Below, piece by piece: positions 40,923 through 57,127 of a DNA stretch of 64,000 nucleotides. This DNA is from Candidatus Sulfotelmatobacter sp. GTDB lineage: Bacteria; Acidobacteriota; Terriglobia; Terriglobales; Acidobacteriaceae. A program made the translations under genes and the position numbers. Below the pieces are notes generated by a model. The model worked only from the letters and a program-made list of their open reading frames with translations. It was not told the DNA's origin and ran no database searches. Where the stretch lies: NCBI GenBank assembly GCA_030041215.1, contig JASHOH010000033.1, positions 1 to 64,000 of the forward strand. Reading direction: 5' to 3'. The first letter of the stretch is position 1; each line of letters opens with the position of its first letter.

Positions 40923-41003
40923 ACGGCGCCATTCCGAAGCCCGCGCTTTAGGTAGAAGCCGGCTTTCAACGGGGGCGGCGAAGCCGCGGGGCGAGGAGTC
41001 TCG
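40923..41003 (-). repeat. Composite-repeat fragment
   Basis: Minus-strand fragment related to the composite interspersed repeat: GAGACTCCTCGCCCC, a GAAAGC linker, and GGCTTCGGAATGGCGCC. It lacks the GTCATCCTGAGC end of the full copies. Confidence 0.6.
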
Positions 41004-41095
41004 CGTGTAGCGCAAAGCGTCCACGTGCGCAACCGAACCACTCCATGAAGTTAGCCCGAATTTGACTCTGAATTCTCCCCCTGCCATGATGAGCA

Positions 41096-41308: not shown

Positions 41309-41328
41309 TTCCCATCTCACAAATGGTC

Positions 41329-41399
41329 TTGAAAAGGCAGGGCTTCCAGCCGCGCCGTCCGGAGCCAGAAAAGACGCGGGCTTCAGTCGCTGAGGAAAA
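41329..41399 (+). repeat. Paired-hairpin repeat (family A)
   Basis: GAAAAGGCAGGGCTTCCAGC and, about 33 bases later, GCGGGCTTCAGTCGCTGAGG. Same order as the copy at 22107-22165. Confidence 0.72.
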
Positions 41400-41544
41400 G
41401 GGCCGTCGGCCAGAAAACCGACTTATGAGATGGATTCTCGTCTCCAGCGTCAAGATCCCGTTATCAGTGCCCCCGCCCGGCATCATTTTTGCGCTAGGAT
41501 AGTCATTTGCTGTAATGGACTGAAGTTCAGCTAGAGGATTGCCC

Positions 41545-43116
41545 ATGCCTTTGCACACCCAGAATTCAATCGTTCAATCCATGAACTACGCTCCGGCGAA
41601 CCTGAATCCCGAAAAAGATCTCCCCAAAGGCTTCATGGACTTCCTCGCTCCCCTGCACAAACAATTCACGCCCTGGCAGCAGAAGCTGGTTGCGAACCGG
41701 GCGAAGGTGCTGGAGGCATCGCATCACGGAAAGCCACCAGATTACTTGCCGCCATCGGAAGCAACCACAACCGAGTGGAAGATCGAAACGCCCGACTGGT
41801 GCGCCGACCAGCGCAATCAGATGACCGGCCCCGCTGACGACGCCGAGCTGACCGTGAAGCTGCTGATTTCAGGATCGCCTGCCGTGATGGTGGACCTTGA
41901 AGATTCCACTGCCAATGCATGGGAGCACATCCTGCTGGCGGTGAAGAACACGATCGCCGCCTACAAATATGAGCTGAGCTACGACGATGCCAAGCGGAAC
42001 AAGAAAGTCACGGTACAAAAGTCAAAAACCGTGACCTGGGTGCGCCCACGCGGTCTGCATTTGAGCCAGGGCGGAGTCTTCAAGAATGAAATCACGTCAG
42101 CTTCGCTGTTCGATGTGGCGCTGATCTGGTATCAGATTGATCCCGCATGGTTGCCGCACAATTTCTCGGTCTACATCCCCAAAAGCGAGTCAGCGGAAGA
42201 AGCTTTCTGGTGGCGCGATCTGTTCCAGGCCCTGGCAAGGCACAAAGGCCTGCCCAAGAACTACATCAAGTGCATGGCCTTGGTGGAAGCCCATCCGCTC
42301 GCATATCAGATGGAAGAATTCCTGTTCAATCTGCATGAACACTGCTTGGGATTGAATCTTGGCCGCTGGGATTACATGGCCTCGCTGATTCATTTCATGC
42401 TTGAGGATCCCAACTGGATTCTTCCCGATCGCAACACGATCCCGCATGATGTGCCGTTCTTTCAGAATTTTCGGACTCTGATGCCGGAGATCTGCCACAA
42501 GCACGGAGTGCATGCAATTGGCGGAATGACAGCGCTCTATCCGAGTCGCACTGACAAAGAACTGAACGACCGCGCGCTGAAGGTGCTGGAGCAAGATAAG
42601 AAAAACGAAGCCAACTGCCTGATGGATGGCGCGTGGACGGGACATCCTGACCAAAACGAGATCGCGGTGGCGCAGTTCCCGTACCCAAACCAGATTGCCA
42701 AGCGGCCGAAGCTGGCGAGCAAGCATCCCGATCTGCGGCCTCTGCCAAAAGGCGTTGGCAAAATCAGTCTCGATGGTACGAGGGCGGCGGCGCGCACCGT
42801 GATTCGTTATCGCAATGGAGTTCTGAATGGCAAAGGCGCAAGCCTGCTCGACGGTTACATGGAGGATTTAGCCACGGATCGCATTTACCGGCTGATGATC
42901 GCGCAGCGCGTGCGGCACAAGGTCAAAGTGCAGGGCGATAACGGAAGACCGGTTGAACACTCCTTTGAGCTGATGAGCCGCATTTTCGATGAGGAGCTGG
43001 CGAAAATTCAACGCGACCTGCCGGCAGAGATTGACCGCAAGGCGGCCGAGACATTGCCCGAAGCCCGTCGCATCGCCGAACAGATGATCATGCAAGGCCA
43101 TCATTCGCCAATTTAG
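41545..43116 (+). CDS. aceB: Malate synthase
   Basis: Condenses glyoxylate and acetyl-CoA to malate. The 523-residue protein is malate synthase A-like: catalytic region VMVDLEDSTANAWEH, the VTWVRPRGLHL motif, YIPKSES and NCLMDGAWTGHPDQ segments, and the GLNLGRWDYM region. Start ATG 41545 has AGAGGA six bases upstream. It is the first gene of the plus-strand oxalate/glyoxylate block. No isocitrate lyase gene is nearby, which suggests that glyoxylate comes from another source such as oxalate, glycolate or purines. Confidence 0.94.
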   Translation: MPLHTQNSIVQSMNYAPANLNPEKDLPKGFMDFLAPLHKQFTPWQQKLVANRAKVLEASHHGKPPDYLPPSEATTTEWKIETPDWCADQRNQMTGPADDAELTVKLLISGSPAVMVDLEDSTANAWEHILLAVKNTIAAYKYELSYDDAKRNKKVTVQKSKTVTWVRPRGLHLSQGGVFKNEITSASLFDVALIWYQIDPAWLPHNFSVYIPKSESAEEAFWWRDLFQALARHKGLPKNYIKCMALVEAHPLAYQMEEFLFNLHEHCLGLNLGRWDYMASLIHFMLEDPNWILPDRNTIPHDVPFFQNFRTLMPEICHKHGVHAIGGMTALYPSRTDKELNDRALKVLEQDKKNEANCLMDGAWTGHPDQNEIAVAQFPYPNQIAKRPKLASKHPDLRPLPKGVGKISLDGTRAAARTVIRYRNGVLNGKGASLLDGYMEDLATDRIYRLMIAQRVRHKVKVQGDNGRPVEHSFELMSRIFDEELAKIQRDLPAEIDRKAAETLPEARRIAEQMIMQGHHSPI

Positions 43117-43270
43117 CGCGGAGAGGCTCGCGCTCGAAGTGCCATGTTCTTAGCGCCCTTTGCGGAAGTTCTTAGCGAACTCTGCGGTTTAAGATGTTAG
43201 AGAAACAATCCAGAGAGATCGCGAGAAACAATCCTGCTAGTCTGTTTGCGATTAGAATCGAGGAACTCAT

Positions 43271-44428
43271 ATGAGCGTTACTGAACAAGCTACTGCCACT
43301 CTTCACTTCCCTCCCTTGCAACCACCGAAGCGCTATCTCTTCGGTCCAGGACCGACAATGGTCGATCCACGCGTCTATGCGGCTCTGTCGAAACCGATCA
43401 TCGGCCACCTCGACGCCTACTTCATCCAGGTCATGGGCGACGTTCAACAACTGGTAAAGATGGTGTATGGAACCACCGAAGGCTCCACTCTCGTGATCTC
43501 GGGCACCGGTAGCGCCGGCATGGAAGCGGCGATCAGCAACTTCGTTGAACCGGGAGCAAAGTTCGCCGTATTTGCCAATGGATATTTCTCCGACCGGCTT
43601 ACCGAAATGGCGAAGCGTCATGGAGCGAACATCGCGCGTTTTGAAAAGCCGTGGGGTGAAGTTTACTCCGATGATGAAGCGCGCGACTTCATCAAGCGCG
43701 AGAAACCGCAGGTCGTGGCCTACGTTCACGCTGAAACGTCCACTGGCGCGCTGCAAAAAGGCAATGCGATCTGCGAGGCAGCGCACGAAGTGGGCGCATT
43801 GGTGATTGGAGATTGCGTGACTTCGCTCGGCGCCATGCCGGTGAATTTCGACGACACCGGAATCGATGTCGCCTACAGTTGCACGCAAAAAGGACTGAGC
43901 TGCCCACCGGGTTTGTCTCCCATGGCGATTTCCGAGCGCGCCATGAACTGGCTGCGGGCCCGCACAACTCCGCCCCGAAGCTGGTATCTCGACCTCAAGC
44001 TAATTTACGACTATTCCACCGTCTCGCATCGCTATCACCACACTGCGCCTATCTCCATGTTCTATGCGCTGCGCGAGGCGCTGATGGTGATTGCCGAAGA
44101 AGGCGTCGAGAACCGCTGGGAGCGCCATCGCCGCGCCAACAGGTCTTTCGTCGGCGGAATCGAAGCCATGGGCCTGAAGATGCACGTGCCCGCCGAGCAC
44201 CGCATCGCCAATCTCAATACAGTTCGCGTGCCCGAGGGCATCGACGAAGCCAAGGTCCGTAAACACCTTTTAGATGGTCCCGGCATCGAAATCGCGGGCG
44301 GTTTTGGGCCACTGGCAGGCAAAGTATTCCGCATCGGCGTCATGGGGCCGCTGGCGACGGAGGAGAATGTCCAATTCTTCCTGAGGGAGTTCAAAAAAGC
44401 TCTGGACGCTGCCGGTTATTCCATCTAG
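43271..44428 (+). CDS. Alanine/serine-glyoxylate aminotransferase (class V)
   Basis: PLP-dependent transaminase that interconverts glyoxylate and glycine with alanine or serine as partner. The 385-residue protein begins with the RYLFGPGPTMVDPRVYAAL family signature; GTGSAGMEAAISNFV and VAYVHAETSTGALQ follow, the DCVTSLGAMPV region holds the cofactor Asp, and the PLP Lys is in YSCTQKGLSCPPGLSPM. Start ATG 43271 has GAGG upstream. Located between malate synthase and the acyl-CoA ligase, it offers a second use for glyoxylate. Amino donor cannot be decided from sequence. Confidence 0.92.
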   Translation: MSVTEQATATLHFPPLQPPKRYLFGPGPTMVDPRVYAALSKPIIGHLDAYFIQVMGDVQQLVKMVYGTTEGSTLVISGTGSAGMEAAISNFVEPGAKFAVFANGYFSDRLTEMAKRHGANIARFEKPWGEVYSDDEARDFIKREKPQVVAYVHAETSTGALQKGNAICEAAHEVGALVIGDCVTSLGAMPVNFDDTGIDVAYSCTQKGLSCPPGLSPMAISERAMNWLRARTTPPRSWYLDLKLIYDYSTVSHRYHHTAPISMFYALREALMVIAEEGVENRWERHRRANRSFVGGIEAMGLKMHVPAEHRIANLNTVRVPEGIDEAKVRKHLLDGPGIEIAGGFGPLAGKVFRIGVMGPLATEENVQFFLREFKKALDAAGYSI

Positions 44429-44619
44429 GCTTGTTCCACAGTTTTTTGTGGTTGCTCTGCTTTGCGGCCTTCACGGCATTTCTTTGCGAACCTTGCGGTT
44501 AAAGCGTCTCCAGCCGCGGAGTGCGAAGAGGCCCCAAAGAGCGCAAGGAACCAGATCGCATCGCTTTGTGGTCTGGCCGCGGGGGTGCCGTTTTCCAAGA
44601 CAAGCCAAGGCAATTAAGA

Positions 44620-46137
44620 ATGAGACTGAAGTCCGTCGACACACTCTCGGACGTTTTACATTTTGCTGATAGCCACACGGCTGTAATCATCCCCGAACTC
44701 AGCCTGCACGTCAGCTACGACTCGCTGCGGCAGCAGGTTCTCGAGATGGCTGACGCGCTGGCCTCGTTCGGCATTCGCCGCGGCGACGCCGTCGCCATGG
44801 CGCTGCCCAATGGCTTGCGGGCGATCGTCGGCTTTCTTGCGGCCTCGATCGCCGGAACCGCAGCGCCGTTAAACCCAGCGTATCCCTACGAAGAATTTCA
44901 TTTCTTCCTCGGCGATACCAACGCCAAAGTTCTGCTTTGCCCTCCAGTCGGGGCCGAGTACGCCCGCACCGCCGCTCTCGATCGCAAGATTCCCGTCCTA
45001 TCTGTGGAGATGAACGAGCAAGGCAAAGTCAGCATCGCCAGTGCTCCGTCTGGCGTGAAAGCAACTGAACCGAAAGCCGACGATATTGCTTTGATCCTGC
45101 ACACCAGCGGCAGCACCGGCCGGCCCAAGCGCGTCCCGCTGCGGCATTTCAATCTCGCGGTATCGGCGGCGAACATCGCAAATACTTATTCCCTTTCTGA
45201 AAACGATGTTTCCCTCTGCATCATGCCGCTTTTTCATATTCACGGCTTGATGGCATCGACCATGGCCACTCTGCTTTCCGGCGGAGCCGTGGTAGTTCCG
45301 GGCAAGTTCAACGCGCTCACTTTCTGGCGAACCGTAAAAGAGCACCGTGTCACATGGTATTCCGGCGTGCCCACCATGCATCAGCTCCTGCTTGCACGGG
45401 CGCACAACAAACCGCTGGAGGCCCGAACCCTTCGTTTCATCCGCTCGTGCAGCGCGCCGCTTTCCGCCCAGTTGATCCACAAAATCGAAGACATGTTCGG
45501 CGTACCCTTCGTAGAAGCCTATGGAATGACAGAAGCGTCCCACCAGATGACCTCCAATCCGCTGCCTCCGCGCCATCGCAAGAGCGGGTCGGTAGGAGTG
45601 GGTACCGGCCTGCGCATCCGCATCATGGATAAAGACGGCAATTCGCTGGAAAACAACCAGCGCGGCGAAATCGCGATTCAGGGCGCCAACGTATTTCGCG
45701 GATACGAAAACAATCCCGAGGCCAATGCCCGCGCTTTCGTGAATGGATGGTTTCGCACCGGCGATGAAGGCTATCTCGACCAGGATTGCTATCTGCACCT
45801 GACCGGCCGCATCAAGGACATCGTTATTCGCGGCGGAGAAAACATTGCGCCCCATGAGATCGATGAGGTTCTGTTAAAGCATCCCGCAGTAGCGGCGGCG
45901 GTGACGTTTGGCTACGCGCATCCGACCCTGGGCGAAGAAGTGGCAGCGGCGGTGGTGTTGCACGAACCGCATGGTGCCACGGAAGCCGCGCTGATCAAGC
46001 ATTGCCGTGAGTTTCTCGCTGAATATAAGTGTCCCAAGAAGATTTATATGGTAAAGAGCATTCCTACCACAGCCACAGGGAAAATCCGCCGGCGTGCAGT
46101 TGCCGCCGCGCTTGTGGATAATCAACAACGCGGATGA
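44620..46137 (+). CDS. AMP-forming acyl-CoA ligase, oxalate-CoA-ligase-like
   Basis: ANL-superfamily ligase of 505 residues starting at ATG 44620; the frame open to 44521 adds 33 Arg-rich residues with no ribosome site. Seen: P-loop LHTSGSTGRPKRVPL, YGMTEASHQM, GWFRTGDEGYLD, the hinge RIKDIVIRGGENIAPHEID, and the C-terminal catalytic Lys in TATGKIRRRA. Short size and overall pattern resemble the plant AAE3/yeast Pcs60 oxalate:CoA ligases. Within this gene block, activation of oxalate to oxalyl-CoA is the best reading; a general short-chain acyl-CoA ligase is the alternative. Confidence 0.78.
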   Translation: MRLKSVDTLSDVLHFADSHTAVIIPELSLHVSYDSLRQQVLEMADALASFGIRRGDAVAMALPNGLRAIVGFLAASIAGTAAPLNPAYPYEEFHFFLGDTNAKVLLCPPVGAEYARTAALDRKIPVLSVEMNEQGKVSIASAPSGVKATEPKADDIALILHTSGSTGRPKRVPLRHFNLAVSAANIANTYSLSENDVSLCIMPLFHIHGLMASTMATLLSGGAVVVPGKFNALTFWRTVKEHRVTWYSGVPTMHQLLLARAHNKPLEARTLRFIRSCSAPLSAQLIHKIEDMFGVPFVEAYGMTEASHQMTSNPLPPRHRKSGSVGVGTGLRIRIMDKDGNSLENNQRGEIAIQGANVFRGYENNPEANARAFVNGWFRTGDEGYLDQDCYLHLTGRIKDIVIRGGENIAPHEIDEVLLKHPAVAAAVTFGYAHPTLGEEVAAAVVLHEPHGATEAALIKHCREFLAEYKCPKKIYMVKSIPTTATGKIRRRAVAAALVDNQQRG

Positions 46138-46168
46138 ACCTTTCGATAATCCCCATGGGTGAGCACGA

Positions 46169-47140
46169 ATGAGATACCTGATCGCCGGAGCGGGCGCGAT
46201 CGGCGCATACATCGGTGCGCGCATGGCGCGGGTGGGTTATGATGTCACGCTGTTCGCCCGCGGCCCGCATCTGCGCGCCATGCAGGAAAAAGGCGTGCAG
46301 GTCAAAAGCGCGGAAGGCGATTTCACCGCGAAACCACAGGTGATCGGAAGCTTCGAAAACGCCGGCATATTCGACGTCGTCTTTCTTGGCGTGAAGGCGC
46401 ACGCGCTCACGCAGCTTGCTCCGCAATTAAAACCGGTGCTCGATCCGCAAACCACAGTGGTCAGCACGCAGAATGGAGTTCCCTGGTGGTACTTCCAGGG
46501 CTTCGGCGGCGAGTTCGATGGGATGCATCTCGAGCGGGTCGATCCCGGCGGCGTGATTTTCGCCTCGATTGACGCGGAGAGCGTGCTGGGCTCAATCGTC
46601 TACTTCGCAACGGAAATCTCTGAGCCGGGCGTCGTACGGCATATCGAAGGCAATCGCATCACCCTGGGCGAGCCCGATGGCACGCGCTCCGACCGCTCCC
46701 GCAAAATCGCTGAGGCCCTGATTGCCTCCGGTCTGCGCGCGCCGATCACAACACGCATCCGTCACGAAATCTGGGTCAAGGTCCTGGGAAATGCGTCGTT
46801 CAATCCAGTAAGTGCGCTCACACGGGCAACGCTGGCGCAAATGGCGCGCGATCCGGGAGCGGCCCGGGTGATCCGCAGCATCATGCAGGAAGTCGAAGCG
46901 GTTTCCCACAGGCTGGGCATGGAGTTGCCAGTTTCGATCGATCAGCGAATCGCCGGAGCGGAGAAAGTCGGCGAGCACAAAACTTCGATGTTGCAGGATC
47001 TCGAAGCCGGCCGGCCGATGGAGCTTGAGGCTCTCGTGGGTGCCGTGGTTGAGATCGGCGAGCGCGTAGGCCTCCCGATGACGTGCACTCGAACCGTATA
47101 TGAATGTGTAAAATTATTAGGAAAAACGGCAGTGTCCTGA
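46169..47140 (+). CDS. Ketopantoate reductase family protein (PanE/ApbA)
   Basis: A 323-residue NADP-dependent reductase. The N-terminus MRYLIAGAGAIGAYIGARMA is the Rossmann motif, followed by VVFLGVKAHAL, the VVSTQNGVPWW segment with the conserved Asn-Gly, and a C-terminal all-helical domain with KVLGNASFNPVSALT carrying the catalytic Lys. These are PanE/ApbA features, but the family also includes other 2-keto acid reductases, and position in the oxalate/glyoxylate block suggests a role there. Ribosome site GGTGAG precedes ATG 46169. Follows the ligase by 31 bases. Confidence 0.85.
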   Translation: MRYLIAGAGAIGAYIGARMARVGYDVTLFARGPHLRAMQEKGVQVKSAEGDFTAKPQVIGSFENAGIFDVVFLGVKAHALTQLAPQLKPVLDPQTTVVSTQNGVPWWYFQGFGGEFDGMHLERVDPGGVIFASIDAESVLGSIVYFATEISEPGVVRHIEGNRITLGEPDGTRSDRSRKIAEALIASGLRAPITTRIRHEIWVKVLGNASFNPVSALTRATLAQMARDPGAARVIRSIMQEVEAVSHRLGMELPVSIDQRIAGAEKVGEHKTSMLQDLEAGRPMELEALVGAVVEIGERVGLPMTCTRTVYECVKLLGKTAVS

Positions 47141-47218
47141 ATTCGCCATCACAAAGGGCTTTACCCCATGTAACCGCGCGTTGCCTGTGGTTTAAAGGGT
47201 TTTCCTTCCGCCGGCACT

Positions 47219-47246
47219 CAACGATCAACAATCAAAAATCAGCCAT
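47219..47246 (+). repeat. AATCA-type repeat arm
   Basis: CAACGATCAACAATCAAAAATCAGCC region with the same AATCA units as at 6761-6792 and 28331-28361, but no facing arm visible. It lies in the gap before the FadR-type regulator promoter. Confidence 0.5.
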
Positions 47247-47291
47247 CCTGTCTGGCTCCTAATCCTCCCAAAAATTATTCGCTTCCCGCCC

Positions 47292-47354
47292 TTGACAATC
47301 GACTCGACAACGGGCGTATACTCCCTCTGTTTGCTGGTCCACTTATCAGACCAG
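47292..47354 (+). promoter_or_regulatory. Promoter and operator-like palindrome of the FadR-type regulator
   Basis: TTGACA at 47292-47297 and TATACT at 47317-47322 (19-base spacer, longer than optimal). Just downstream, CTGGTC (47334-47339) and GACCAG (47349-47354) form a perfect 6-bp inverted repeat with a 9-base spacer. TGGT/ACCA half-sites are typical of GntR/FadR-type operators, although the spacer is longer than the classical three bases. The site lies where transcription should start, fitting autorepression. Confidence 0.65.
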
Positions 47355-47369
47355 TTGGAGGTTTCAAGG

Positions 47370-48080
47370 TTGCCCACCGCAGCCAAAACCGAATTTGAGG
47401 TTATCCGTAGAAACAAAGTCTACGAGGAAGTAGCCAAGCAGATCGAACGGTTGATCCTGAAGAAGCTGCGGCCTGGGGACAAGCTACCCTCCGAGCGCGA
47501 GCTGGCGGAAACGCTGAGAGTTAGCCGCAGTTCAATTCGGGACGCAATCCGCAGTTTGGAGCTGATGGGACTGGTGGAACCGCGGCAGGGGGCCGGAACG
47601 ATCGTCCGCGAAGTCACATCCGGGTCGGTAGTCAACTCGTTCGAGAATGCACTGATGCGGCGGCGCGAATTGGTCAGCGAGCTTCTGGATTTTCGCCGCA
47701 TGCTCGAACCGCCGCTGGCTGCGCGGGCTGCAATCCACGCCTCTGAAGCCGATGTCTCCGAGATGGAAGACATTCTTCAGCGGCAATATGAAAAGCAACG
47801 CCGGGGGGAGCCTGCCGTCGCCGAAGATGCCGAATTTCACTACGCCATTGCGCTCGCTTCCGACAACAGCGTTGTCCTGAAAGTCATCGACATTCTCATG
47901 GATCTGCTGCGTGAGTCGCGCGAGCGGTCGCTGCAGGTCGAAGGTCGCGCGCAAAAATCGCTTGCCGGGCATCGGCGCATTCTGGCGGCCATCAAGCGCC
48001 GCGACGCCGAAGCGGCAAAAGATGCCATGCGGCACCACATCGAAGACGTCGAAGAAATCGTGCTGAACAAGGTCTATTAA
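47370..48080 (+). CDS. FadR-type GntR transcriptional regulator
   Basis: A 236-residue regulator starting at TTG 47370, chosen because GGAGG lies eight bases upstream; the frame upstream is open but crosses the promoter. The N-terminal winged helix is clear (VYEEVAKQIERLILKKLRPGDKLPSERELAETLRVSRSSIRDAIRSLELMGLV), and the all-helical FCD ligand domain contains the metal-type FRRMLEP, FHYAIALAS and HRRILAAI segments. Members sense organic acids such as lactate, glycolate or oxalate-related compounds. Located directly upstream of the oxidoreductase genes, it probably regulates them. Confidence 0.9.
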   Translation: MPTAAKTEFEVIRRNKVYEEVAKQIERLILKKLRPGDKLPSERELAETLRVSRSSIRDAIRSLELMGLVEPRQGAGTIVREVTSGSVVNSFENALMRRRELVSELLDFRRMLEPPLAARAAIHASEADVSEMEDILQRQYEKQRRGEPAVAEDAEFHYAIALASDNSVVLKVIDILMDLLRESRERSLQVEGRAQKSLAGHRRILAAIKRRDAEAAKDAMRHHIEDVEEIVLNKVY

Positions 48081-48101
48081 ATATGCACAGGGAGGACTGG
48101 C

Positions 48102-49274
48102 ATGGGCCGGCTATTCGCAATTGAGATTATTTATCGCGGTATTTTTCAAAAAACTCTGGCGACAAGAATCAGCCGGACAATCGTGCTAGCCGCCCATCAG
48201 GAAGGTAAGATGGGCATTTCTTTTGGCCGCTATGGCGACAGCCCCGAGCGCAACGGCATCCCGGCCAAAAACTTCGCCATCGTCGCCACCGACGAGCAAA
48301 CCCTGCAAGAAGGCATGGCCAAGTATGAGCCGAAAGAAGTCGACGTCACCATCGTAGTCGACGACACGCTGTGCAAAGGCGTCGAATCCTGGGCCTGGTA
48401 CGGACTGCAGCCTGTCAATCGCCTCCTCAAATCCGGCGGCACGCTGATCGTCACTTCGCGCGAGACTCCCGAAACCATTATTGCGATGACCCATCGCAAA
48501 CAGACTCCTTACAACCTGTCGATTCTCAAGGGCACAGTGAGCTTCTCGGGACTATGGGTCTACAAAGACGATCACACTGACGTTCGCATTCTCGGCGCGA
48601 TCGCGAAGATTCTGCCCGATCTCTTCAGCTTGCAATCGGTGCAGAAGGCCATCATCTCCGAATGGAAATCGGAACTCAAGGCGATCTCGGCAGCCAATGC
48701 ACACGAGCGCACGACCTCGATTCCAGTAAAACCGAATCAGGGCAATCCCGAGGTGCCATATCACTTCACATTGCCGAAGTGGCATGAAATGCGAGAAGGC
48801 ATTTCCATCCCCAGCATTCCGGCTGGACACGAGATGGATGATCCGAAGACTCACGCCGAAGGTGGCTTCCAGCCCGACCGGAATCCGACCTTCCTGAAAT
48901 TCAGCACGCGCACCATGCGGCCGGTGGTCAACTTCGATACCTGCATCAAGTGCACGCTGTGTTGGTTGCAGTGCCCCGATTCCTGCTTCGACGTCACCCC
49001 CGAGGGCCTGTATGACGCGAATATGAAGGCCTGCTGTGGATGCGGGGTCTGCGAGGCGGTGTGCCCGGTCAAGAATTGCGTCACCATGGTCAACGAGACC
49101 GAATTCACAGACAACAGCAGTCAGTGGGAAAGCTGGCGCAAAGACAAGCACAGCTACAAAGTTTGGCTCGAGGAAAAAATAAAGAATCCCGCAGAGCGCT
49201 CGCATGGCTTCCGCTATCGTGGTCAGTACGAGGAGCAGATTCCGGAGATGCTGGAGATCGCCAGCGGGAAATGA
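48102..49274 (+). CDS. Oxalate oxidoreductase-like 2-oxoacid:ferredoxin oxidoreductase, fused gamma-delta subunit
   Basis: A 390-residue fusion. Residues about 1-200 are the gamma (catalytic-partner) domain of the 2-oxoacid oxidoreductase family (GRYGDSPERNGIPAKNFAIV, VDVTIVVDDTLCKG, LKSGGTLIVTSR). After a linker, residues about 275-325 are a delta ferredoxin domain with two complete 4Fe-4S motifs: C281xxC284xxC287xxxC291P and C311xxC314xxC317xxxC321P. This gamma-delta fusion is the organisation described for Moorella oxalate oxidoreductase. Start ATG 48102 has GGGAGG six bases upstream; the gap to the regulator is only 21 bases. Confidence 0.85.
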   Translation: MGRLFAIEIIYRGIFQKTLATRISRTIVLAAHQEGKMGISFGRYGDSPERNGIPAKNFAIVATDEQTLQEGMAKYEPKEVDVTIVVDDTLCKGVESWAWYGLQPVNRLLKSGGTLIVTSRETPETIIAMTHRKQTPYNLSILKGTVSFSGLWVYKDDHTDVRILGAIAKILPDLFSLQSVQKAIISEWKSELKAISAANAHERTTSIPVKPNQGNPEVPYHFTLPKWHEMREGISIPSIPAGHEMDDPKTHAEGGFQPDRNPTFLKFSTRTMRPVVNFDTCIKCTLCWLQCPDSCFDVTPEGLYDANMKACCGCGVCEAVCPVKNCVTMVNETEFTDNSSQWESWRKDKHSYKVWLEEKIKNPAERSHGFRYRGQYEEQIPEMLEIASGK

Positions 49275-49380
49275 TTACCGCGATCATCTTCTTGAGATGT
49301 CATTCCGAACCGACCTGAAAGGGTCGGTCAGGAACCTGCTTTCTTGGGCGAATGACTAACAGCTTCATAGGAGAACCACC

Positions 49381-50613
49381 ATGGCCGTGGCAACCGTAAT
49401 CGAAGAACAGAAAAAGAGAACTGAAGAAACTGCGCTAATCACGGGCAGCGAAGCCATTGCGGTCGCCTGCAAGCTGGCCGATGTCGACGTGATTACGGCT
49501 TACCCCATCCGGCCGTACGACACCGTCATGCAGTACGTTTGCAAGCTGGTCGCGAACGGCGAAATGGACTGTGAATACATCTGCGCCGAAGGCGAGCACT
49601 CGCAGTTTGAAATCGTCAAGCACGCCTCCGCCTGCGGCGCGCGCGTGTTCTGCGGATCCAGCGGCGTCGGCTGGATGTACGCCATGGAAGCGCTCACCGT
49701 CACGCCGGCGCTCCGCATTCCCATGATTGCCATGGTCGGCAACCGCGCCCTCGACGACCCCGGCGCCTTCGGCGTCGAGCACAACGACGCGCTCGCGGTG
49801 CGCGATCTCGGCTGGCAACTCGTCTGGGTCGATACTGCGCAGGAAGCCCTCGACACTGCGCTCATTGCCTATCGCGTCGCGGAAGATCGCCGCGTGTTCT
49901 TGCCGCTGGCCATCAGCTGCGACGGAGCGTTCCTCACCCACTCCCAGGCTCTGGTAAAAATTCCGACGCAAAAGAAGGTGAACGAGTTCCTCCCTCCATA
50001 TAATCGTGGTGACCTGCTCCTGCACCCGGATAATCCCATCACCGTCGCACCCCAGGGCAACGAAGACTGGGTCATGGAAATCCGCCGCCAGAATTACGCA
50101 GCAATGGAGCGCTCGTATCAAGTCGTCAAAGAAGCCTACGCCGACTTCGAGCGCATCTTCGGCCGCTCGTACGGTAATCCATTCTTCGAGGAGTACATGA
50201 CCGAAGATGCCGACATCGTTCTCGTCGGCATGGGAACGTTGTCGATTCCGGTGAAAGTGGCGATCCGCCAGATGCGGAAAGAAGGCAAGCGGGTTGGATT
50301 TGTGCGCATGCGCTGGTTCCGTCCGTTCGCCGCCGAGGAGCTGTCGAAGTCGCTGCAACGCTTCTCCGCCATCGGAGTAATCGATCGCGATTATTCGTTC
50401 GGTTCGCCCTATCTCGGCGGCGTGCTGGCCGGCGAAGTTCGTCACGCGCTGTATCCGGGCAACGGCAAGAAGCCGCCGGTGGTTGGCTTCATCTGCGGAC
50501 TCGGCGGCCGCGAAGTTACGGTGCCCAATGTCGAGCAGATGGCCAATGCGGTGTACAACGCGGCTGATGGCAAGGCGCAGCCGCTGACTCAGTGGATCGG
50601 ATTGCGCGAGTAG
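49381..50613 (+). CDS. Oxalate oxidoreductase-like alpha subunit
   Basis: A 410-residue alpha subunit of the 2-oxoacid:acceptor oxidoreductase family. The substrate-binding motif, YPITP in pyruvate enzymes, is Y41-P-I-R44-P here. Arg44, Arg122 (VGNRALDD) and Phe130 (DPGAFGVEH) sit at a constant offset of 13 from Arg31, Arg109 and Phe117, which I recall as active-site residues of Moorella oxalate oxidoreductase. This favours oxalate over pyruvate as substrate. C-terminal domains (VLVGMGTLSIPVKVAIRQMRKEG) are normal. Start ATG 49381 follows AGGAGA; the interval before it contains a GTCATTCCGA-type repeat. Confidence 0.85.
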   Translation: MAVATVIEEQKKRTEETALITGSEAIAVACKLADVDVITAYPIRPYDTVMQYVCKLVANGEMDCEYICAEGEHSQFEIVKHASACGARVFCGSSGVGWMYAMEALTVTPALRIPMIAMVGNRALDDPGAFGVEHNDALAVRDLGWQLVWVDTAQEALDTALIAYRVAEDRRVFLPLAISCDGAFLTHSQALVKIPTQKKVNEFLPPYNRGDLLLHPDNPITVAPQGNEDWVMEIRRQNYAAMERSYQVVKEAYADFERIFGRSYGNPFFEEYMTEDADIVLVGMGTLSIPVKVAIRQMRKEGKRVGFVRMRWFRPFAAEELSKSLQRFSAIGVIDRDYSFGSPYLGGVLAGEVRHALYPGNGKKPPVVGFICGLGGREVTVPNVEQMANAVYNAADGKAQPLTQWIGLRE

Positions 50614-50716
50614 TCGTCCTCGCATTTGTCATTTCGACGTGCGAGCGAAGCGAGACAGGAGGAATCTCCTGAAGCAGCAGTTAGTGGCCAACTAGTTTAT
50701 CGAGAGGAAAAAGATT

Positions 50717-51745
50717 ATGGATACCTACGTACAAGTCGATCCCACCCAGCAGCTTGATGCCTACAAGGCAGTCAAGAAGATTCCGCTCGAAGAGTTTTTC
50801 ACCTCCGGCCACCGCACCTGCCAGGGCTGCGAATCGGCGCTAGTCATGAAGATGATGGCCAAGGCCGCCGGCCCGCGCACCATCGTGCTCGGCAGCACCG
50901 GCTGCATGTATGTCGCAAACACGACATACTACAGCACCTCCTGGGTGCTTCCCTGGATGCACACGCAACTCGGCAGCAGCGGATCAGCCGCGCTGGGTGC
51001 GGCTGCCGCATTCAAGGCTCTCATGCGCAAGGGCAAGATGAAGAAAGAGCCCATCAATGTGATAGCCTTCTGCGGCGATGGTGGCGGCGCAGATATGGGC
51101 GTGGGCGCAATCTCGGCAACTCTGACCCATCCCGACTACAACTGCCTCATCCTCATGTACGATAACGAGTCTTACGCAAATACAGACATTCAGCTTTCAG
51201 GCAGCACGCCGTGGGGCGCCAACACCACGTTCAGCACGCCCGGCAAGGTAAGGAGAATAATGCACCGGCGCTGGAAAAAGAACATGGCCGGCATGATGGC
51301 CGCCGGACATCCCACCTGCCGTTATGTCGCAACCGTTTGCATGTCCTACGGCCTGGCGGCAATGAATTCCATCCGCAAGGCGCTGGCCATTGGCGGCCCG
51401 ACTTTTATCCACTCCCTCGATCCCTGTCCAAAGGGTTGGGATTACGATCCTTATCTCTCCCACGAACTGGGCGAACTGGCCGTCAATACCGGGGTTTGGC
51501 CGCTTTATGAAGTGGAAGACGGTGTGCTGAAACTTACTGGTAGGACGCAGCAGATTGCTGCCAAAAAAGTCCCCCGGCAACCGGTTCGAGATTATCTGTT
51601 GAAGCAAGGCCGCTTCGCCCACTTCACCAACGATGACATCGATTACTTCCAGAGCAAGGTCGATGAAATGTGGGAAAAGTGGCTGATTCCCGGTGTCATT
51701 CCCTTCCGGGCAGAAGTGGAATCCGACGCTCCCCCATCATCCTAG
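50717..51745 (+). CDS. Oxalate oxidoreductase-like beta subunit (ThDP-binding)
   Basis: A 342-residue subunit that binds thiamine diphosphate and the proximal 4Fe-4S cluster. Cys35 and Cys38 (HRTCQGCES), Cys63 (TGCMYV) and a late Cys in LDPCPKGWD supply the cluster ligands; the ThDP/Mg motif runs from GDGGGADMGVG (120-130) to NESYANT (150-156). It lacks a CoA-binding-type insertion that I can recognise, in keeping with a CoA-independent reaction, though absence is weak evidence. A GAGAGGAAAAAG site precedes ATG 50717. The three genes are in the order gamma-delta, alpha, beta. Confidence 0.85.
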   Translation: MDTYVQVDPTQQLDAYKAVKKIPLEEFFTSGHRTCQGCESALVMKMMAKAAGPRTIVLGSTGCMYVANTTYYSTSWVLPWMHTQLGSSGSAALGAAAAFKALMRKGKMKKEPINVIAFCGDGGGADMGVGAISATLTHPDYNCLILMYDNESYANTDIQLSGSTPWGANTTFSTPGKVRRIMHRRWKKNMAGMMAAGHPTCRYVATVCMSYGLAAMNSIRKALAIGGPTFIHSLDPCPKGWDYDPYLSHELGELAVNTGVWPLYEVEDGVLKLTGRTQQIAAKKVPRQPVRDYLLKQGRFAHFTNDDIDYFQSKVDEMWEKWLIPGVIPFRAEVESDAPPSS

Positions 51746-51864
51746 GGCGGCGCTTGAGAAATATGTAGCGAAAACACCTCTGCCGGAAGCCGCTGTCGAG
51801 TAGGAGTCGGCGGTTCCGAAATAAGCCGTAACTTTAAAGCGCGCCGTTCAAGAAGGTGATTCTT

Positions 51865-53214
51865 ATGGCTTCAGCAACAGCAGCGGTGAACGAGCCCAAA
51901 ATCGTCAACCGCTGGATTCAGATGTTGGCCTGCATCATCGCGATGATGGCCATCGCAAACCTGCAGTATGCCTGGACCTTATTTACCAAACCACTAACAG
52001 CGGGCTTGCACGCTACTCTGGCGGCGGTACAAATCGCCTTCGCTGCTTTCATCTTCTGCGAAACCTGGCTGGTTCCGTTCGAGGGCTATCTGATTGATCT
52101 TCTCGGCCCCCGGCTGGTCATCGGCATCGGCGGCCTGCTCGTCGGCGCCGGCTGGATCGGGTCCGGTTACGCTACCACCGCCACCGGCCTCTACATTTGG
52201 TACGCTATCGGCGGCATCGGCGCTGGCGCGGTTTACGGAGGTTGCACCGGCAACGTGCTCAAGTGGTTTCCCGATCACCGCGGCCTCTGTGCCGGCGTAG
52301 TTTCTGGCGCCTATGGCATAGGCACCGCAGTTACCGTAGCCCCGATCGAAGACATGATCAAAGCTTCCGGCTACCAGCATGCCTTTATCTTTTGGGGCAT
52401 CGTCCAAGGCATCATCGTAACCTTGGCTGCCATGTTCATCGTCGCACCACCAAAAGGTTGGATGCCCAAGAACTTCAAGCCCGCCGCCAAGGTGCGTCAA
52501 AGTATGGTCGACATGACCTGGTGGGAGATGCTGCACCAACCCTCCTTCTATGTCATCTACGTCATGATGACGCTGGTCGCGTTCGGCGGACTCGTCGTTA
52601 CTGCTCAACTGAAGGAAATCGCCGGCTTCTACAACGTGGACAGAGTGATCGTCGCTTGGGGCCTTTCCGCTTCCATCCTGGCAATTCAGTTGAATCGAAT
52701 CGTCAACGGAGTGACTCGCCCGCTGTGGGGCTGGATTTCCGATCACATTGGCCGCGAGAACGCCATGTTCTCCGCCTTCCTCATCGAAGGCTTCGCCATC
52801 TGGGCCTGGTTGCAAACCATTAGTAGACCGGTCATGTTTGTCCTTTTATCGAGCCTGGTGTTCTTCGCCTGGGGCGAGATCTTCTCCCTGTTCCCGTCAA
52901 TCACCGCCGATTTATTCGGCAGGCGATGGGCCACGACCAACTACGGTATCGTTTACACGTCTAAGGGAACGGCCTCGATCTTCTCCGCTCCCGTTGCCGC
53001 CTACGTTATGTTGAAGACCGGATCATGGGTGCCGGTTTTCTACGTCATGATCGCTTGCGATGTGATCGCGGCCCTTATGGCCTTGTTCTGGTTGAAACCC
53101 CTGGCCAGGCGCTGTGCCGATGAATCGAACAGCGGACTCGTCGGAGTAGGTGCGCAGGGTCCTCCCGGAATAGCTGCGAAGGAACCTCCGGTCAAGGTTC
53201 GCGGAGCAGCCTGA
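51865..53214 (+). CDS. oxlT: OxlT-like oxalate:formate antiporter family MFS transporter
   Basis: A twelve-helix MFS protein of 449 residues from ATG 51865 (GAAGG eight bases upstream). It shows the OFA-family opening NLQYAWTLFTKPL, FPDHRGLCAGVVSGAYGIG after helix 4, and two residues at positions expected for substrate-binding basic residues of OxlT: Arg285 in NGVTRPLWG and Lys367 in YTSKGTAS, 82 residues apart versus 83 in Oxalobacter OxlT (Arg272 and Lys355, as I recall). It directly follows the oxidoreductase beta gene, which supports oxalate uptake. Exchange partner (formate or other) is unknown. Confidence 0.85.
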   Translation: MASATAAVNEPKIVNRWIQMLACIIAMMAIANLQYAWTLFTKPLTAGLHATLAAVQIAFAAFIFCETWLVPFEGYLIDLLGPRLVIGIGGLLVGAGWIGSGYATTATGLYIWYAIGGIGAGAVYGGCTGNVLKWFPDHRGLCAGVVSGAYGIGTAVTVAPIEDMIKASGYQHAFIFWGIVQGIIVTLAAMFIVAPPKGWMPKNFKPAAKVRQSMVDMTWWEMLHQPSFYVIYVMMTLVAFGGLVVTAQLKEIAGFYNVDRVIVAWGLSASILAIQLNRIVNGVTRPLWGWISDHIGRENAMFSAFLIEGFAIWAWLQTISRPVMFVLLSSLVFFAWGEIFSLFPSITADLFGRRWATTNYGIVYTSKGTASIFSAPVAAYVMLKTGSWVPVFYVMIACDVIAALMALFWLKPLARRCADESNSGLVGVGAQGPPGIAAKEPPVKVRGAA

Positions 53215-53629
53215 GGCAAATCGAGCCGCTCTCCCGCCCTTCCACCCCTTTTGCGAACCGGGTGCCCCATCCGCAGCCTGCCCTGAGTGTCCATGGGCCC
53301 ACGGGCCCACCGAAGGAAATGAAACTGGGGTGGCCCACTTCTCGCCGCTTTTGCGAGAAGTGGGAGTTTAGACACAGCGAAGTCGAAAGGCAGTTTTCGA
53401 AGAGTGGGCGGCGGCCCGCGAGCTTGAGCGGTAGTGTTCTAAAAGTGCGCTGCTGAGTTCGGATTTCGTAACGGGGAACCATAGCGGTAAAGAGGATAAC
53501 TGCAGGCAAATGTAAAAATTCGCAACAGGGGCGTAGGAAGGCAGCGCCAAAATGCAGCGGCAATTATTGGGGTCTGACCGTACCTCTTTAGAGAAATGGC
53601 TTGAAACTCTAGCAGTGGTTCTGATCATC
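53215..53629. repeat. Repeat-filled gap with a CCCACTTCTCGC hairpin
   Basis: Over 400 bases without a gene. 53327-53366 is a hairpin (CCCACTTCTCGC / GCGAGAAGTGGG) closely matching 4195-4233; CACGGGCCCACCG and GAAGAGTGGGCGG pieces flank it. Open frames here have no ribosome sites. Confidence 0.6.
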
Positions 53630-53956
53630 CTAGGTCTTGCAGTCGCACTCACAAGATGATCTGCCACTTTCCGCCTTCTGCCAGTGAGAATACGTCCTGC
53701 CGCAGCCCAGTTTCAGCACCTGCATAACCAGCGAGGGGCTGCCCACCTCCGGTTCGGTGAGCAGAAGGTGAACGTGTTCGGGCATGACCACGTAACCGAC
53801 GACCACGAAACGGTACTTCAACCGCGTCTGGTCGGAAGTGGAGAGGAAGCGGTCGCGGGCCCGAGCGGAATCGAACAAAGGAATCCGTCGATAGCAGGAA
53901 CTGGTGATAAAGTGCAGATGATGAGCGCCGTAGGTGCGATGCAGGCCCGCAGGTAT
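53630..53956 (-). pseudogene. Decayed REP-associated tyrosine transposase (RAYT, IS200-like)
   Basis: About 108 residues with a RAYT core: YGAHHLHFITSSCYRRIPLF, YRFVVVGYVVMPEHVHLLL (the HxH of the HUH nuclease), and VMQVLKLG. The family start codon seems lost (an ATA precedes PAGLHRTYGAHH), and the C-terminal half with the rest of the catalytic helix is missing or frameshifted. The open frame running upstream to 54118 is repeat-derived sequence. It is a remnant beside several REP-like hairpins, which such enzymes can mobilise in other bacteria. Confidence 0.75.
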
Positions 53957-54134
53957 GACAAACCCATGGTATCGCCAGCATCGGGCCCGCCCTCGCCAAA
54001 AACGCGAGAGCCTGCCCTGAGCGCAGTCGAAGGGACGGAGCACCCACGGTGCTATAACGGGAAAGAGAAACCACAAGGGGGCGGGCCACCCGTCCGTTCC
54101 TGTGCGAAAACTGCCCAACCACGCAGGGGCAATG

Positions 54135-55799
54135 TTAATCCGTGACTACAAAAGAGCGAGAGGACGTGGCCGTCCCGCCGGGAGTGGCCACTACGATCTT
54201 CCCGGTTAACGCTCCAGTGGGTACGGTGAGGGTCACTTGGGTATTGGAGTTCACGATGAAGGCTACCGCCAGGCCGTCGAGGGTGACAGCGCTGATCTGG
54301 CTGAGGCTGTCGCCGCTGACGGTAACTTCCGTGCCTGTCGGACCTCGCTCCGGATGGAAGGAAGTAATCTGCGGAGTCACGCGAAAGGCCACGTTGCTGG
54401 CTAGGGTCTGGCCGGGAGTTACGACAGAAATGGTCTCAGTGGTGGCACCCTGCGGCACGGTGGCAACGATGTGAGAACTGGACACAACCGTGAACTCCGC
54501 GCTCACATTCCCGCCGAAGGTCACCGAGGTGGCGCCGGTCAGGTTCGATCCGAGAATTTCGATCTTTTCGTTCACCTTACCGAAAGCGGGAACGGTCTCG
54601 ACGAAAGGCGTGACCTGAGTATTTAAAGAATAAATGCAGCCCGTACTCCAGAAGCTGCCCAAAGTCTCGCCGTAGAAGACGCCGTCGGTTCCCTCGACTA
54701 CGCCTGCATAGGTTTGTCCATCCTCGCAAGTCGACTGAGTGCAAAAGTTGTGAAGAACAGTTAGAGCGCCCTGCGGTGTTACTTCAAAGAGCGTGCCTGC
54801 CCCGTAGAGCCCGCCCCATGCAGTGGTGCCATAGAAATTGCCGTCGCTGGCCTGAATCAATCCCCCGTTGGGGTTACTGCCGTCGGCACAGTCGGCCAGC
54901 GAGCAAAACTGGTAGAGGACGGTCAACGCGCCGGATGGAGTCAGCTGGAATAACGTGCCAGCGCTGTTAAGCCCTCCCACGAAGGTAGTGCCGTAGAAGT
55001 TGCCGTCGCTGCCCTGGATCACGCCAGAATACTGGTTGGAGCCGTCGGCGCAGTTGGGTTGAGAACAGAAGGAATAGACAGTGGTGAGCTGGCCGGCGGG
55101 CGTGATCTTGAAGACGGTGCCTGCGCCATAGAGCCCTCCTGCCGAAGTGGTGCCGTAAAAGTTGCCGTCGGTTGCAAAGACCAATCCCGGCTCGGCCCAG
55201 GGGACGTCGCCGTCGGCGCAGTTGGGCAGTGCGCAGAAACTATAGAGGGTGGTCAACTTGCCGGCGGGGGTCATTTTGAAAACAGTGCCACCATTAACAC
55301 AGCACTGAGCGCTGCCGTAGGCGCCGCCGTAAGAGGTGGTGCCATAGAAGTTGCCGGCCGCATCCTGGGCCAGCGGTTGGGCGGGGTTGTAGCCGTCGGC
55401 GCAGTTCGGAAGCGAACAAAAGTTATAGAGCGTGGTCAGTTCGCCGGTGGTGCTGATTCTGTAGACGGTTCCGGCAGCGCCGTTCAGCCCGGTGCCGCCA
55501 AAAAACGCGGTTCCGTATAGTCCGCGTCTGGTCTGAATCAGCCCGGCGTAAGGTTCGGCGTCGCCAAGGCTGTAAAACCTCACTTTACCCGCCGGTGACA
55601 TTCGGAAAACACTGCCAAGGGAGAAAGTGGTTCCATAGAAATTGCCATCGAAACTCTGAACCGGGGAGCTGTACCAAGGCTGGCCGTAGGGGCCGCTATT
55701 GAAAGAGTAGAGAATATTGAAGGTTTGTGCGCGAGAAGCGAGGGGCGCTGCCGCGCATACCAGAATCAACACTCGGATCACTTTTGTGAGGTTCCTCAT
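54135..55799 (-). CDS. Exported choice-of-anchor-type repeat protein with IPT/TIG domains
   Basis: A 554-residue secreted protein, start ATG 55799 with GGGAGGG upstream and signal peptide VIRVLILVCAAAPLASRAQ. It consists of about seven repeats of roughly 50 residues containing DGNFYGTT, GAGTVFKITPAG, LTTLYSFC and ADG motifs; at least five units carry a CxxxxC pair (C-SLPN-C), probably disulphides. Two C-terminal IPT/TIG-like domains follow (ILGSNLTGATSVTFGG and VSGDSLSQISAVTLDG). The repeats suggest a beta-propeller; such proteins are frequent in Acidobacteriota. The role (surface recognition or polysaccharide binding) is unknown. Confidence 0.85.
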   Translation of the reverse strand: MRNLTKVIRVLILVCAAAPLASRAQTFNILYSFNSGPYGQPWYSSPVQSFDGNFYGTTFSLGSVFRMSPAGKVRFYSLGDAEPYAGLIQTRRGLYGTAFFGGTGLNGAAGTVYRISTTGELTTLYNFCSLPNCADGYNPAQPLAQDAAGNFYGTTSYGGAYGSAQCCVNGGTVFKMTPAGKLTTLYSFCALPNCADGDVPWAEPGLVFATDGNFYGTTSAGGLYGAGTVFKITPAGQLTTVYSFCSQPNCADGSNQYSGVIQGSDGNFYGTTFVGGLNSAGTLFQLTPSGALTVLYQFCSLADCADGSNPNGGLIQASDGNFYGTTAWGGLYGAGTLFEVTPQGALTVLHNFCTQSTCEDGQTYAGVVEGTDGVFYGETLGSFWSTGCIYSLNTQVTPFVETVPAFGKVNEKIEILGSNLTGATSVTFGGNVSAEFTVVSSSHIVATVPQGATTETISVVTPGQTLASNVAFRVTPQITSFHPERGPTGTEVTVSGDSLSQISAVTLDGLAVAFIVNSNTQVTLTVPTGALTGKIVVATPGGTATSSRSFVVTD

Positions 55800-56122: not shown

Positions 56123-57127
56123 ATGGAACCGAAAACACTGCAAGACGCCGTTAAATACTTCTCCGACGAGCAAAGCTGTATTGATGCGGTAGCTGAGGCA
56201 CGCTGGCCCAAAGGCGCTGTTTGTCCGCACTGCGAAGCGAAAGAGCCTTACTACCTTAAGACTCAAAAACGGTGGAAATGTCGGGCTTGCCGCAAGCAAT
56301 TTTCTGTGAAGGTTGGCACTATTTTCGAGGAATCATTATTGCCTTTGCAGAAGTGGATGCCTGCCTTGTGGATGTTGACCAACTGTCGCAATGGAGTGAG
56401 CAGCCATGAGATTGGACGAACTTTGGGGATCACCCAGAAGTCAGCGTGGTTCGTACTCCATCGACTGAGATTGGCGATGCAGAAGGGGAGTTTTGAAAAG
56501 TTCGGTGGGCCGGGGAGCGCGGTCGAAGCTGATGAGAGTTACGTTGGCGGACGTGCAACCAACATGCACAAAGCGAAACGAGCGATGTTCAAGACCGCAC
56601 GCGAGTCTGCTGTGATGATGGGTGACGCACAGGTGGTCAACAAAGCGGCGGTCTGGGGTGTACTAGATCGCAAGCAGCGGAAAGTGCGTGCTACCGTCGT
56701 GCCGAAGATCAATCGGGAATCTTTGCAAACTGCTGTGCTCAATCACGTCGAGTATGGTTCACAAATCTACACCGATCAGGCGACAGTTTACAAATCGCTA
56801 CCGAAGGAATACACGCACGAATTTGTGAATCATCTTGAGCGGTACGTCAATGGGCAGGTTCACACAAACGGGCTTGAGAACTTCTGGAGCCTGACAAAGC
56901 GGACATTGCACGGAACCTATGTTGCGGTTGAGCCATTCCACTTGCATCGCTACATGGATGAAGCAATGTTCCGTTACAACAATCGCAAGGACGAAAATGG
57001 GCGCAAGTTGAGCGACGGTGAACGATTCAGTCTGGCCCTGTCACAGATCGTTGGCAAACGTCTTACCTACGCGGAGTTGACTGGCAAGACAGATGATGCG
57101 AGGACTACGACGCCTGAGCCTTTCTAA
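56123..57127 (+). CDS. IS1595-family transposase (ISXO2-like DDE)
   Basis: A 334-residue transposase. The N-terminal zinc ribbon has two CxxC pairs (CPHC, CRAC) joined by a Lys/Trp-rich linker; a helix-turn-helix-like segment follows (GVSSHEIGRTLGITQKSAWFVLHRLR). The DDE-type catalytic domain shows EADESYVGG, the IYTDQATVY segment and the NGLENFWSLTKRTLHGTYV segment with the last acidic residue. Length is normal and no frameshift is visible, so it is probably active. It begins 24 bases after the left inverted repeat. Confidence 0.95.
   Translation: MEPKTLQDAVKYFSDEQSCIDAVAEARWPKGAVCPHCEAKEPYYLKTQKRWKCRACRKQFSVKVGTIFEESLLPLQKWMPALWMLTNCRNGVSSHEIGRTLGITQKSAWFVLHRLRLAMQKGSFEKFGGPGSAVEADESYVGGRATNMHKAKRAMFKTARESAVMMGDAQVVNKAAVWGVLDRKQRKVRATVVPKINRESLQTAVLNHVEYGSQIYTDQATVYKSLPKEYTHEFVNHLERYVNGQVHTNGLENFWSLTKRTLHGTYVAVEPFHLHRYMDEAMFRYNNRKDENGRKLSDGERFSLALSQIVGKRLTYAELTGKTDDARTTTPEPF

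Follow-up and report, generated by a model that had tools for sequence, protein, structure and literature searches.

The 64,000-nucleotide stretch of Candidatus Sulfotelmatobacter sp. analysed here (the window; contig JASHOH010000033.1) carries, at 41539-53214, a gene cluster that is likely an oxalate utilization system, in which an oxidoreductase of a family that we call W-type would oxidize oxalate alongside its assimilation. An earlier note, made from the sequence, had predicted an oxalate oxidoreductase (OOR) accompanied by an OxlT-like antiporter. That setting holds for the genes named and falls short as the full extent of the cluster, which reaches upstream to 41539. The proposed gene order (fused gamma-delta, alpha, beta, transporter) is borne out by four open frames on the + strand, the first three of which have Shine-Dalgarno-like stretches upstream:

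48102..49274, + strand: gamma-delta subunit of the predicted W-type OOR, 390 aa, gamma and two-[4Fe-4S] delta domains in one chain (best Protein Data Bank (PDB) match 5c4i_B)
49381..50613, + strand: alpha subunit of the predicted W-type OOR, 410 aa (best PDB match 5c4i_A; YPIRP motif; alpha tree)
50717..51745, + strand: beta subunit of the predicted W-type OOR, 342 aa, binding thiamine pyrophosphate (TPP) and the proximal iron-sulfur (Fe-S) cluster (best PDB match 5c4i_C, 280 bits; TGCMYVANT motif; beta tree)
51856..53214, + strand: predicted OxlT-type major facilitator superfamily (MFS) oxalate transporter, 452 aa (TIGR04259; 8hpj; residue mapping)

All three enzyme subunits have the OOR of Moorella thermoacetica as their best solved relative. 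The alpha subunit matches 5c4i_A with 336 bits (E=2.1e-99), followed by a Methanosarcina pyruvate enzyme at 207 bits. The beta subunit matches 5c4i_C (E=3e-82; runner-up 196 bits), and the gamma-delta subunit matches 5c4i_B with 74 bits (E=9e-20; runner-up 39), its gamma half being weak at 23 bits. The OOR alpha, beta and delta models are also the top-ranked NCBIfam models for the respective subunits. These matches confirm the three-subunit 2-oxoacid:ferredoxin oxidoreductase (OFOR) described earlier.

Phylogenetic trees resolve this assignment further. In the alpha tree, 90 W-type rows, Moorella OOR and four acidobacterial M-type rows (relatives carrying the Moorella switch motif) form one clade of 95, set apart with SH-aLRT support of 100 from 16 other OFORs, namely 15 Acidobacteriota rows and one archaeal POR (Methanosarcina acetivorans, 9bt4). 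The beta tree divides in the same way (83 versus 20 rows, 100/100), and in both trees the W-type is sister to the clade of Moorella plus M-type. The alpha tree used 14 of the 18 other-OFOR loci (L019-L036), with L026 left out, and was built without the partial loci L050, L051, L070 and L127; betas of ≤280 or ≥420 residues were excluded from the beta tree. Measured against this limited, mostly acidobacterial outgroup, both subunits fall with Moorella OOR, outside the pyruvate and 2-oxoglutarate clades; the program flagged long branches. By sequence, the W-type ranks as a variant sister to OOR, and the name 'OOR', as applied to the window enzyme, is a functional prediction.

The substrate prediction draws on the conservation of key residues. 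Moorella OOR is described as having a unique YPIRP motif, the Arg31 of which binds oxalate, and an Arg109 that is common to other OFORs (PMC5020499). The window alpha retains both arginines, as Arg44 within YPIRP and as Arg122, the position assigned to the carboxylate. The motif is present in 89 of the 91 W-type alphas (one reads YAIRP and one is truncated) and in 5/5 M-type alphas; all 14 other OFOR alphas of the alpha tree read YPITP. Arg122 is invariant in 41/41 aligned rows and, being common to other OFORs, is not diagnostic alone. The beta motif TGCMYVANT, found in Moorella beta, occurs in 86/86 W-type betas and is accompanied by NESYANT in 76 of them; the four M-type betas read TGCMYVANS and NEQYANT. 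All eight delta-domain cysteines of gamma-delta are invariant in 36 aligned rows. In subunit make-up (alpha, beta and a fused gamma-delta) and in its TPP site and three [4Fe-4S] sites, the enzyme matches OOR; the Fe-S and TPP motifs were read in the window translations by common motif rules.

Structure predictions for alpha and gamma-delta both rank OOR first. The first match of the alpha fold is 5c4i_A (E 2.4e-44, TM-score 0.89/0.92, 43% identity). For gamma-delta, OOR chains fill Foldseek ranks 1-8 (E 2.4e-21 to 4.1e-19; next 1.6e-11), at TM-scores of only 0.41-0.44 by query length, which we attribute to domain orientation.

The transporter gene directly follows the enzyme genes, as had been noted. 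It scores 450 bits with the oxalate/formate antiporter model TIGR04259 (cut-off 335), and its best PDB match is OxlT (8hpj, 202 bits). The substrate-binding residues Arg272 and Lys355 of OxlT are kept as Arg288 and Lys370; both are reported to be conserved across the whole OFA family (PMC10070484). With the family model above cut-off and the key residues kept, a generic MFS transporter was rejected. The protein thus shares its family model and its substrate-binding arginine and lysine with the Oxalobacter oxalate:formate antiporter (8hpj, 8hpk), from which its setting differs in that the window genome lacks an OXC/FRC route to formate above cut-off. The counter-ion or coupling of the window transporter is therefore probably other than formate, or formate comes from elsewhere.

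The upstream half of the cluster adds five genes, four of which could act on oxalate, oxalyl-coenzyme A (oxalyl-CoA) or glyoxylate:

41539..43116, + strand: diverged malate synthase-like protein (Pfam MS_TIM-barrel 182 bits; best PDB match malate synthase A 3cuz, 229 bits)
43271..44428, + strand: class V aminotransferase, probably an alanine/serine:glyoxylate aminotransferase (best PDB match 1vjo, alanine--glyoxylate aminotransferase, 354 bits)
44521..46137, + strand: predicted AMP-forming oxalate--CoA ligase (oxalyl-CoA synthetase; PDB ranking)
46169..47140, + strand: ApbA/PanE-family reductase, candidate oxalyl-CoA reductase (oxalyl-CoA to glyoxylate; Pfam ApbA)
47292..48080, + strand: GntR/FCD-family regulator (Pfam GntR and FCD)

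The malate synthase-like protein would convert glyoxylate and acetyl-CoA to malate, and its gene may lie in the same transcription unit as the rest of the cluster. The number of promoter- and terminator-like sites at 43000-54000 is not above that in shuffles, and no RNA family scores above its gathering score at 41000-54500. The aminotransferase has no NCBIfam equivalog above cut-off and has a counterpart in the same cluster in four relatives (L054, L056, L058 and L127). The four best PDB matches of the ligase are all oxalate-CoA ligases (435, 424, 377 and 287 bits; next 239), and among the 25 families listed for it no NCBIfam equivalog exceeds its cut-off. Relatives of the ligase align mostly from about residue 27 to 42; its true start is probably nearer 44620 (Met34). 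The GntR/FCD protein is a candidate regulator of the cluster: a GntR homologue lies within the fetched stretch in 37 of the 38 acidobacterial-group loci that have at least 2.2 kb upstream of alpha.

The reductase was placed through plasmid-borne homologues (30 listed of 57 records; flanks of 7-10 kb). Among hand-picked loci, OXC, FRC, OxlT or the ligase occurs near 10 of 11 nearer homologues (from H1-H18, 39-48% identity), the exception being Skermanella L148 (7 kb flanks), and near 0 of 8 more distant ones (from H19-H30, 36-38%). PanE2 of Methylobacterium extorquens is described as a putative oxalyl-CoA reductase (PMC8411744). Cupriavidus necator ApbA2, 51% identical to PanE2 and encoded close to frc-oxc, is described as a probable CoA-acylating glyoxylate dehydrogenase (PMC7486775). 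Like these systems, the window has a PanE-family reductase, whose neighbours here are an oxalate-CoA ligase and enzymes that use glyoxylate; unlike them, it comes from a genome without OXC or FRC above cut-off, in which the OOR-like enzyme stands in.

The combination of genes is conserved in relatives. Our 91 W-type loci comprise 44 in a group of Acidobacteriota, Myxococcota and Armatimonadota (the acidobacterial group) and 47 others; neighbours were counted from a phmmer table or by frame-independent tblastn because the gene caller had missed some of them (one beta, some gamma-delta). In the acidobacterial group, OxlT lies ≤10 kb downstream of alpha in 26 of the 30 loci with at least 2.8 kb of downstream DNA; it is upstream of alpha in L044, and none was seen at L043, L059 or L067. 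Fourteen loci with shorter downstream DNA were set aside, three of which have OxlT. The gene after OxlT in one same-family genome belongs to the formamidase/acetamidase family (L040:4506-5681), and similar genes occur in L038, L039, L063 and L065.

Gene content across 250 same-family genomes points the same way. An alpha of either type (E up to 1e-85) is present in 25, the ligase (E up to 1e-150) in 29 and both in 19 (Fisher 1.9e-16, uncorrected for kinship). The ligase occurs in 11/15 genomes with only the W-type and in 4/6 with only the M-type, compared with 10/225 without alpha. In 10 of the 19 genomes having both, ligase and alpha share a contig and are ≤7 kb apart. The reductase (E up to 1e-80) is found in all 29 ligase-bearing genomes and in 32 overall.

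The M-type enzymes occupy equivalent clusters. L048, of the same genus as the window, has a ligase-PanE-GntR...OxlT cluster with M-type OOR in place of the W-type; its alpha exceeds the NCBIfam OOR cut-off (590 versus 500) and its beta lies below (443 versus 590). The second copy in L058 likewise shares the cluster genes and the full Moorella alpha switch motif. At L048:7157-11974, L058:12454-17331 and L059:6364-11261, the M-type genes encode a separate gamma, a 610-aa GltD-like flavoprotein, alpha and beta. The 610-aa protein fuses a delta-like Fe-S domain to a GltD-like NAD(P)H flavoprotein, which suggests an NAD(P) acceptor, whereas the window enzyme has a ferredoxin-type gamma-delta. By these features, the M-type is apparently an NAD(P)-linked OOR in the same oxalate cluster.

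The description of the host as an acidobacterium with an aerobic-style genome is supported by its named nearest relatives and by four COX1 genes above cut-off, which suggest respiration as the final sink of electrons. Five other places in the genome match POR_N, one of them a 1232-aa fused frame and another a further W-type copy on C233, so the organism is not short of ferredoxin-linked oxidoreductases. Neither OXC (best 163 bits, cut-off 739) nor FRC (161 bits, cut-off 504) was found above cut-off in the window genome. The textbook formyl-CoA route is therefore apparently missing, which would leave the energy-yielding step to the OOR-like enzyme. The copy on C233 belongs to a second W-type set (L043, contig C233, G000:C233:2500-22000); its alpha is 75% identical to that of the window and reads AESENSQFE in place of AEGEHSQFE. 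A short-chain fatty acid transporter gene lies close to this second set.

From these features we propose how the cluster likely works. The OxlT-like protein would import oxalate, part of which the W-type TPP enzyme would oxidize to two CO2 without CoA, as Moorella OOR does. Two low-potential electrons would pass via the Fe-S clusters of the enzyme to ferredoxin. In parallel, the ligase would form oxalyl-CoA, the PanE-type reductase would convert it to glyoxylate, and malate synthase and aminotransferase would channel glyoxylate into malate and glycine. One oxalate burned could thus supply the reductant for assimilating another. The window enzyme resembles Moorella OOR (PDB 5c4i, 5exd, 5exe) in its alpha, beta and fused gamma-delta subunits and in YPIRP, the Arg109 equivalent and TGCMYVANT. 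It differs in its sister-clade position, in its switch loop and in its host, an acidobacterium with four COX1 genes and not an acetogen, whose cluster adds genes for oxalate assimilation.

Several observations weigh against this assignment. One concerns the switch loop. Moorella OOR is described as using Arg31 and Asp116 in a bait-and-switch step (PMC5020499). Asp116 is replaced by alanine in 91/91 W-type alphas (Ala129 in the window), which have a new aspartate at position 113 (Pro113 in Moorella). The loop reads RALDDPGAF in 91/91 W-type rows and RTLDPPGDF in Moorella and 5/5 M-type rows; in the window model, alpha residues 126-135 are predicted at pLDDT <50. All three subunits miss the NCBIfam OOR cut-offs (alpha 381/500, beta 332/590, delta 94/230 bits), and the alpha margin is narrow, with PorA_Arch at 349 bits. 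The pyruvate enzyme 9bt4_A fits the predicted alpha fold nearly as well as 5c4i_A (E 3.8e-36, TM-score 0.88/0.90), so the alpha fold alone decides little. The cluster shows no ferredoxin acceptor. OxlT exchanges formate, yet OXC and FRC, which would yield formate from oxalate, are missing above cut-off from this genome. With 311 bits in the NCBIfam model for malate synthase A (cut-off 594.5), the malate synthase is a diverged one. By tblastn, no OxlT, ligase or PanE lies near the second W-type copy.

Further points against arise among the other loci, beginning with the adjacent W- and M-type genes of L058 and L059. Outside the acidobacterial group, an oxalate enzyme over cut-off lies near only 4 of the 47 W-type loci (L098, L099, L104 and L120); none was found near the other 43, some of them short, including 13/13 Rokubacteria and 8/8 SAR202-type loci. 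A link to oxalate outside that group comes from an alphaproteobacterial bin (L120:1377-12216), which has the order TctC-TctB-TctA-GntR-OXC-FRC-gamma-delta-alpha-beta, with W-type subunits, an OXC of 1023 bits (cut-off 739) and an FRC of 665 bits (cut-off 504). FRC also passes its cut-off near the W-type genes of L098, L099 and L104; OXC does so only at L120 among the loci examined. The TPP enzyme near the W-type genes of L098 was rejected as OXC (216/739 bits), as was that of the SAR202 and Rokubacteria loci; the 25 families listed for L102 and for L103 do not include OXC. A reading of the double CoA-transferase at SAR202-type loci as Frc was likewise rejected (292 and 289 bits, cut-off 504). 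By cut-off, then, the CoA-transferase and TPP enzyme of the scanned SAR202-type loci are not Frc and Oxc. Given the co-location of the two types and the OXC and FRC of L120, the W-type could do something complementary. On balance, the trees, the YPIRP arginine and the acidobacterial-group neighbours speak for the predicted OOR; the altered switch loop and the missed curated cut-offs speak against it.

A homologue of TctA, from a tripartite tricarboxylate transporter, lies beside the W-type genes in 10/13 Rokubacteria loci, 2/4 Methylomirabilota loci and the sole Acetothermia locus, indicating a carboxylate transporter, which is not proof of oxalate. In two Actinomycetota (L123:5052-6614 and L125:12714-14225), a membrane protein of 504-521 aa with roughly 11 spans follows W-type beta; that of L125 has no Pfam match at E 1e-8, and a carboxylate transporter of a new kind is possible. 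In the gammaproteobacterial L098, the W-type genes come after a ferredoxin-like gene, which scores 120 bits with the FdxA model (cut-off 135), and a protein with weak GltD similarity. In the SAR202-type Dehalococcoidia locus L102 (12393-14070), W-type beta is followed by a 165-aa protein that matches no Pfam family and by a flavin mononucleotide (FMN)-dependent 2-hydroxyacid dehydrogenase, so that oxidation of glycolate via glyoxylate to oxalate is conceivable there. Pyruvate, phosphate dikinase genes lie near W-type or PanE/OxlT genes in L058 (1139-3928), nine Rokubacteria loci, L126 and Azospirillum L150-L152. Oxalate inhibits pyruvate, phosphate dikinase, and the neighbouring gene may be a resistant or gluconeogenic copy. 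In the window, two overlapping minus-strand frames at 53630-54122, just downstream of the cluster, resemble pieces of a REP-associated transposase, possibly frame-shifted. An open frame with a zinc-ribbon start at 56123-57127 resembles an IS1595-type transposase.

An alternative that we consider unlikely, if worth weighing, is that the W-type acts in oxalate and glyoxylate metabolism on another small acid, for example in a CoA-dependent conversion of glyoxylate to formyl-CoA and CO2 that would complement a true OOR or OXC. Such a role would accommodate the universal loss of Asp116, the paired W- and M-type genes, the OXC and FRC of L120 and the dehydrogenase of L102. It fits less well with the retained equivalent of Arg31, described as the oxalate-binding site (PMC5020499), since glyoxylate is without a second carboxylate. 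The ligase is about as frequent in W-only as in M-only genomes, acidobacterial-group loci usually have OxlT as a neighbour, and most Rokubacteria loci carry the tripartite tricarboxylate transporter. We find it improbable that the cluster runs in reverse, with glyoxylate oxidized via oxalyl-CoA to oxalate and the OOR-like enzyme disposing of internal oxalate. The oxidative direction described for the PanE2-type ApbA2 of C. necator (PMC7486775) would suit this scheme, but an OxlT of the oxalate-transporter type and an ATP-using oxalate-CoA ligase would not, and the malate synthase-like and aminotransferase genes would consume the glyoxylate. That the enzyme is an ordinary pyruvate or branched-chain OFOR that happens to adjoin a transporter is scarcely credible and was rejected on trees and motifs: it belongs to that superfamily, has the fold and the TPP and Fe-S sites of pyruvate:ferredoxin oxidoreductases (M. 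acetivorans 9bt4, Moorella 6cin, D. africanus 1b0p), has a PorA_Arch score near its OOR alpha score and an alpha fold that fits 9bt4_A nearly as well as 5c4i_A, but it lies outside the sampled rows of that kind, matches the pyruvate enzyme less well by alpha score (207 versus 336 bits), has YPIRP where 9bt4 has YPITP and carries the OOR-like beta motif throughout, in an oxalate-related neighbourhood and in a genome with a separate 1232-aa fused POR frame.

Beyond the window, the 80 loci kept out of 159 include W-type alphas from records whose names assign them to eleven phyla. Record titles mark metagenome bins for all W-type loci but L125, so some phylum placements may be binning errors. Returning to oxalate oxidation by the W-type, we put forward, with slightly more doubt than belief, a broader proposal: that the W-type forms a widespread second class of OOR, independent of CoA and with a rebuilt switch loop, found in respiring bacteria and some archaea across these phyla, where it would replace or stand beside oxalyl-CoA decarboxylase, and that here, together with oxalyl-CoA synthetase and reductase, it makes up a self-contained oxalotrophy. 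Judged largely by titles and the starts of abstracts, no report of such a cluster was found. In a search covering open papers, with most subscription papers outside it, none contained both 'oxalate oxidoreductase' and 'Acidobacteri'. A 2023 oxalotrophy survey tracks oxdC, oxc, frc and oxlT, and by a term count the words 'ferredoxin' and 'oxidoreductase' are absent from it (PMC10192776). A paper that mentions both oxalate and SAR202 reports that two cultured Dehalococcoidia do not use oxalate.

Comparison of the two types offers a natural set of switch-loop variants in the W-type, on which the bait-and-switch mechanism could be tested, and brings out relatives with an apparently NAD(P)-linked OOR. 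Oxalate, an acid common in plants and fungi, abounds in the habitats of both, and OOR is best known from oxygen-avoiding acetogens. If the W-type oxidizes oxalate, an enzyme class best known from acetogens would operate in respiring cells, and oxalate turnover in acidobacteria, perhaps also in other carriers, would have been overlooked.

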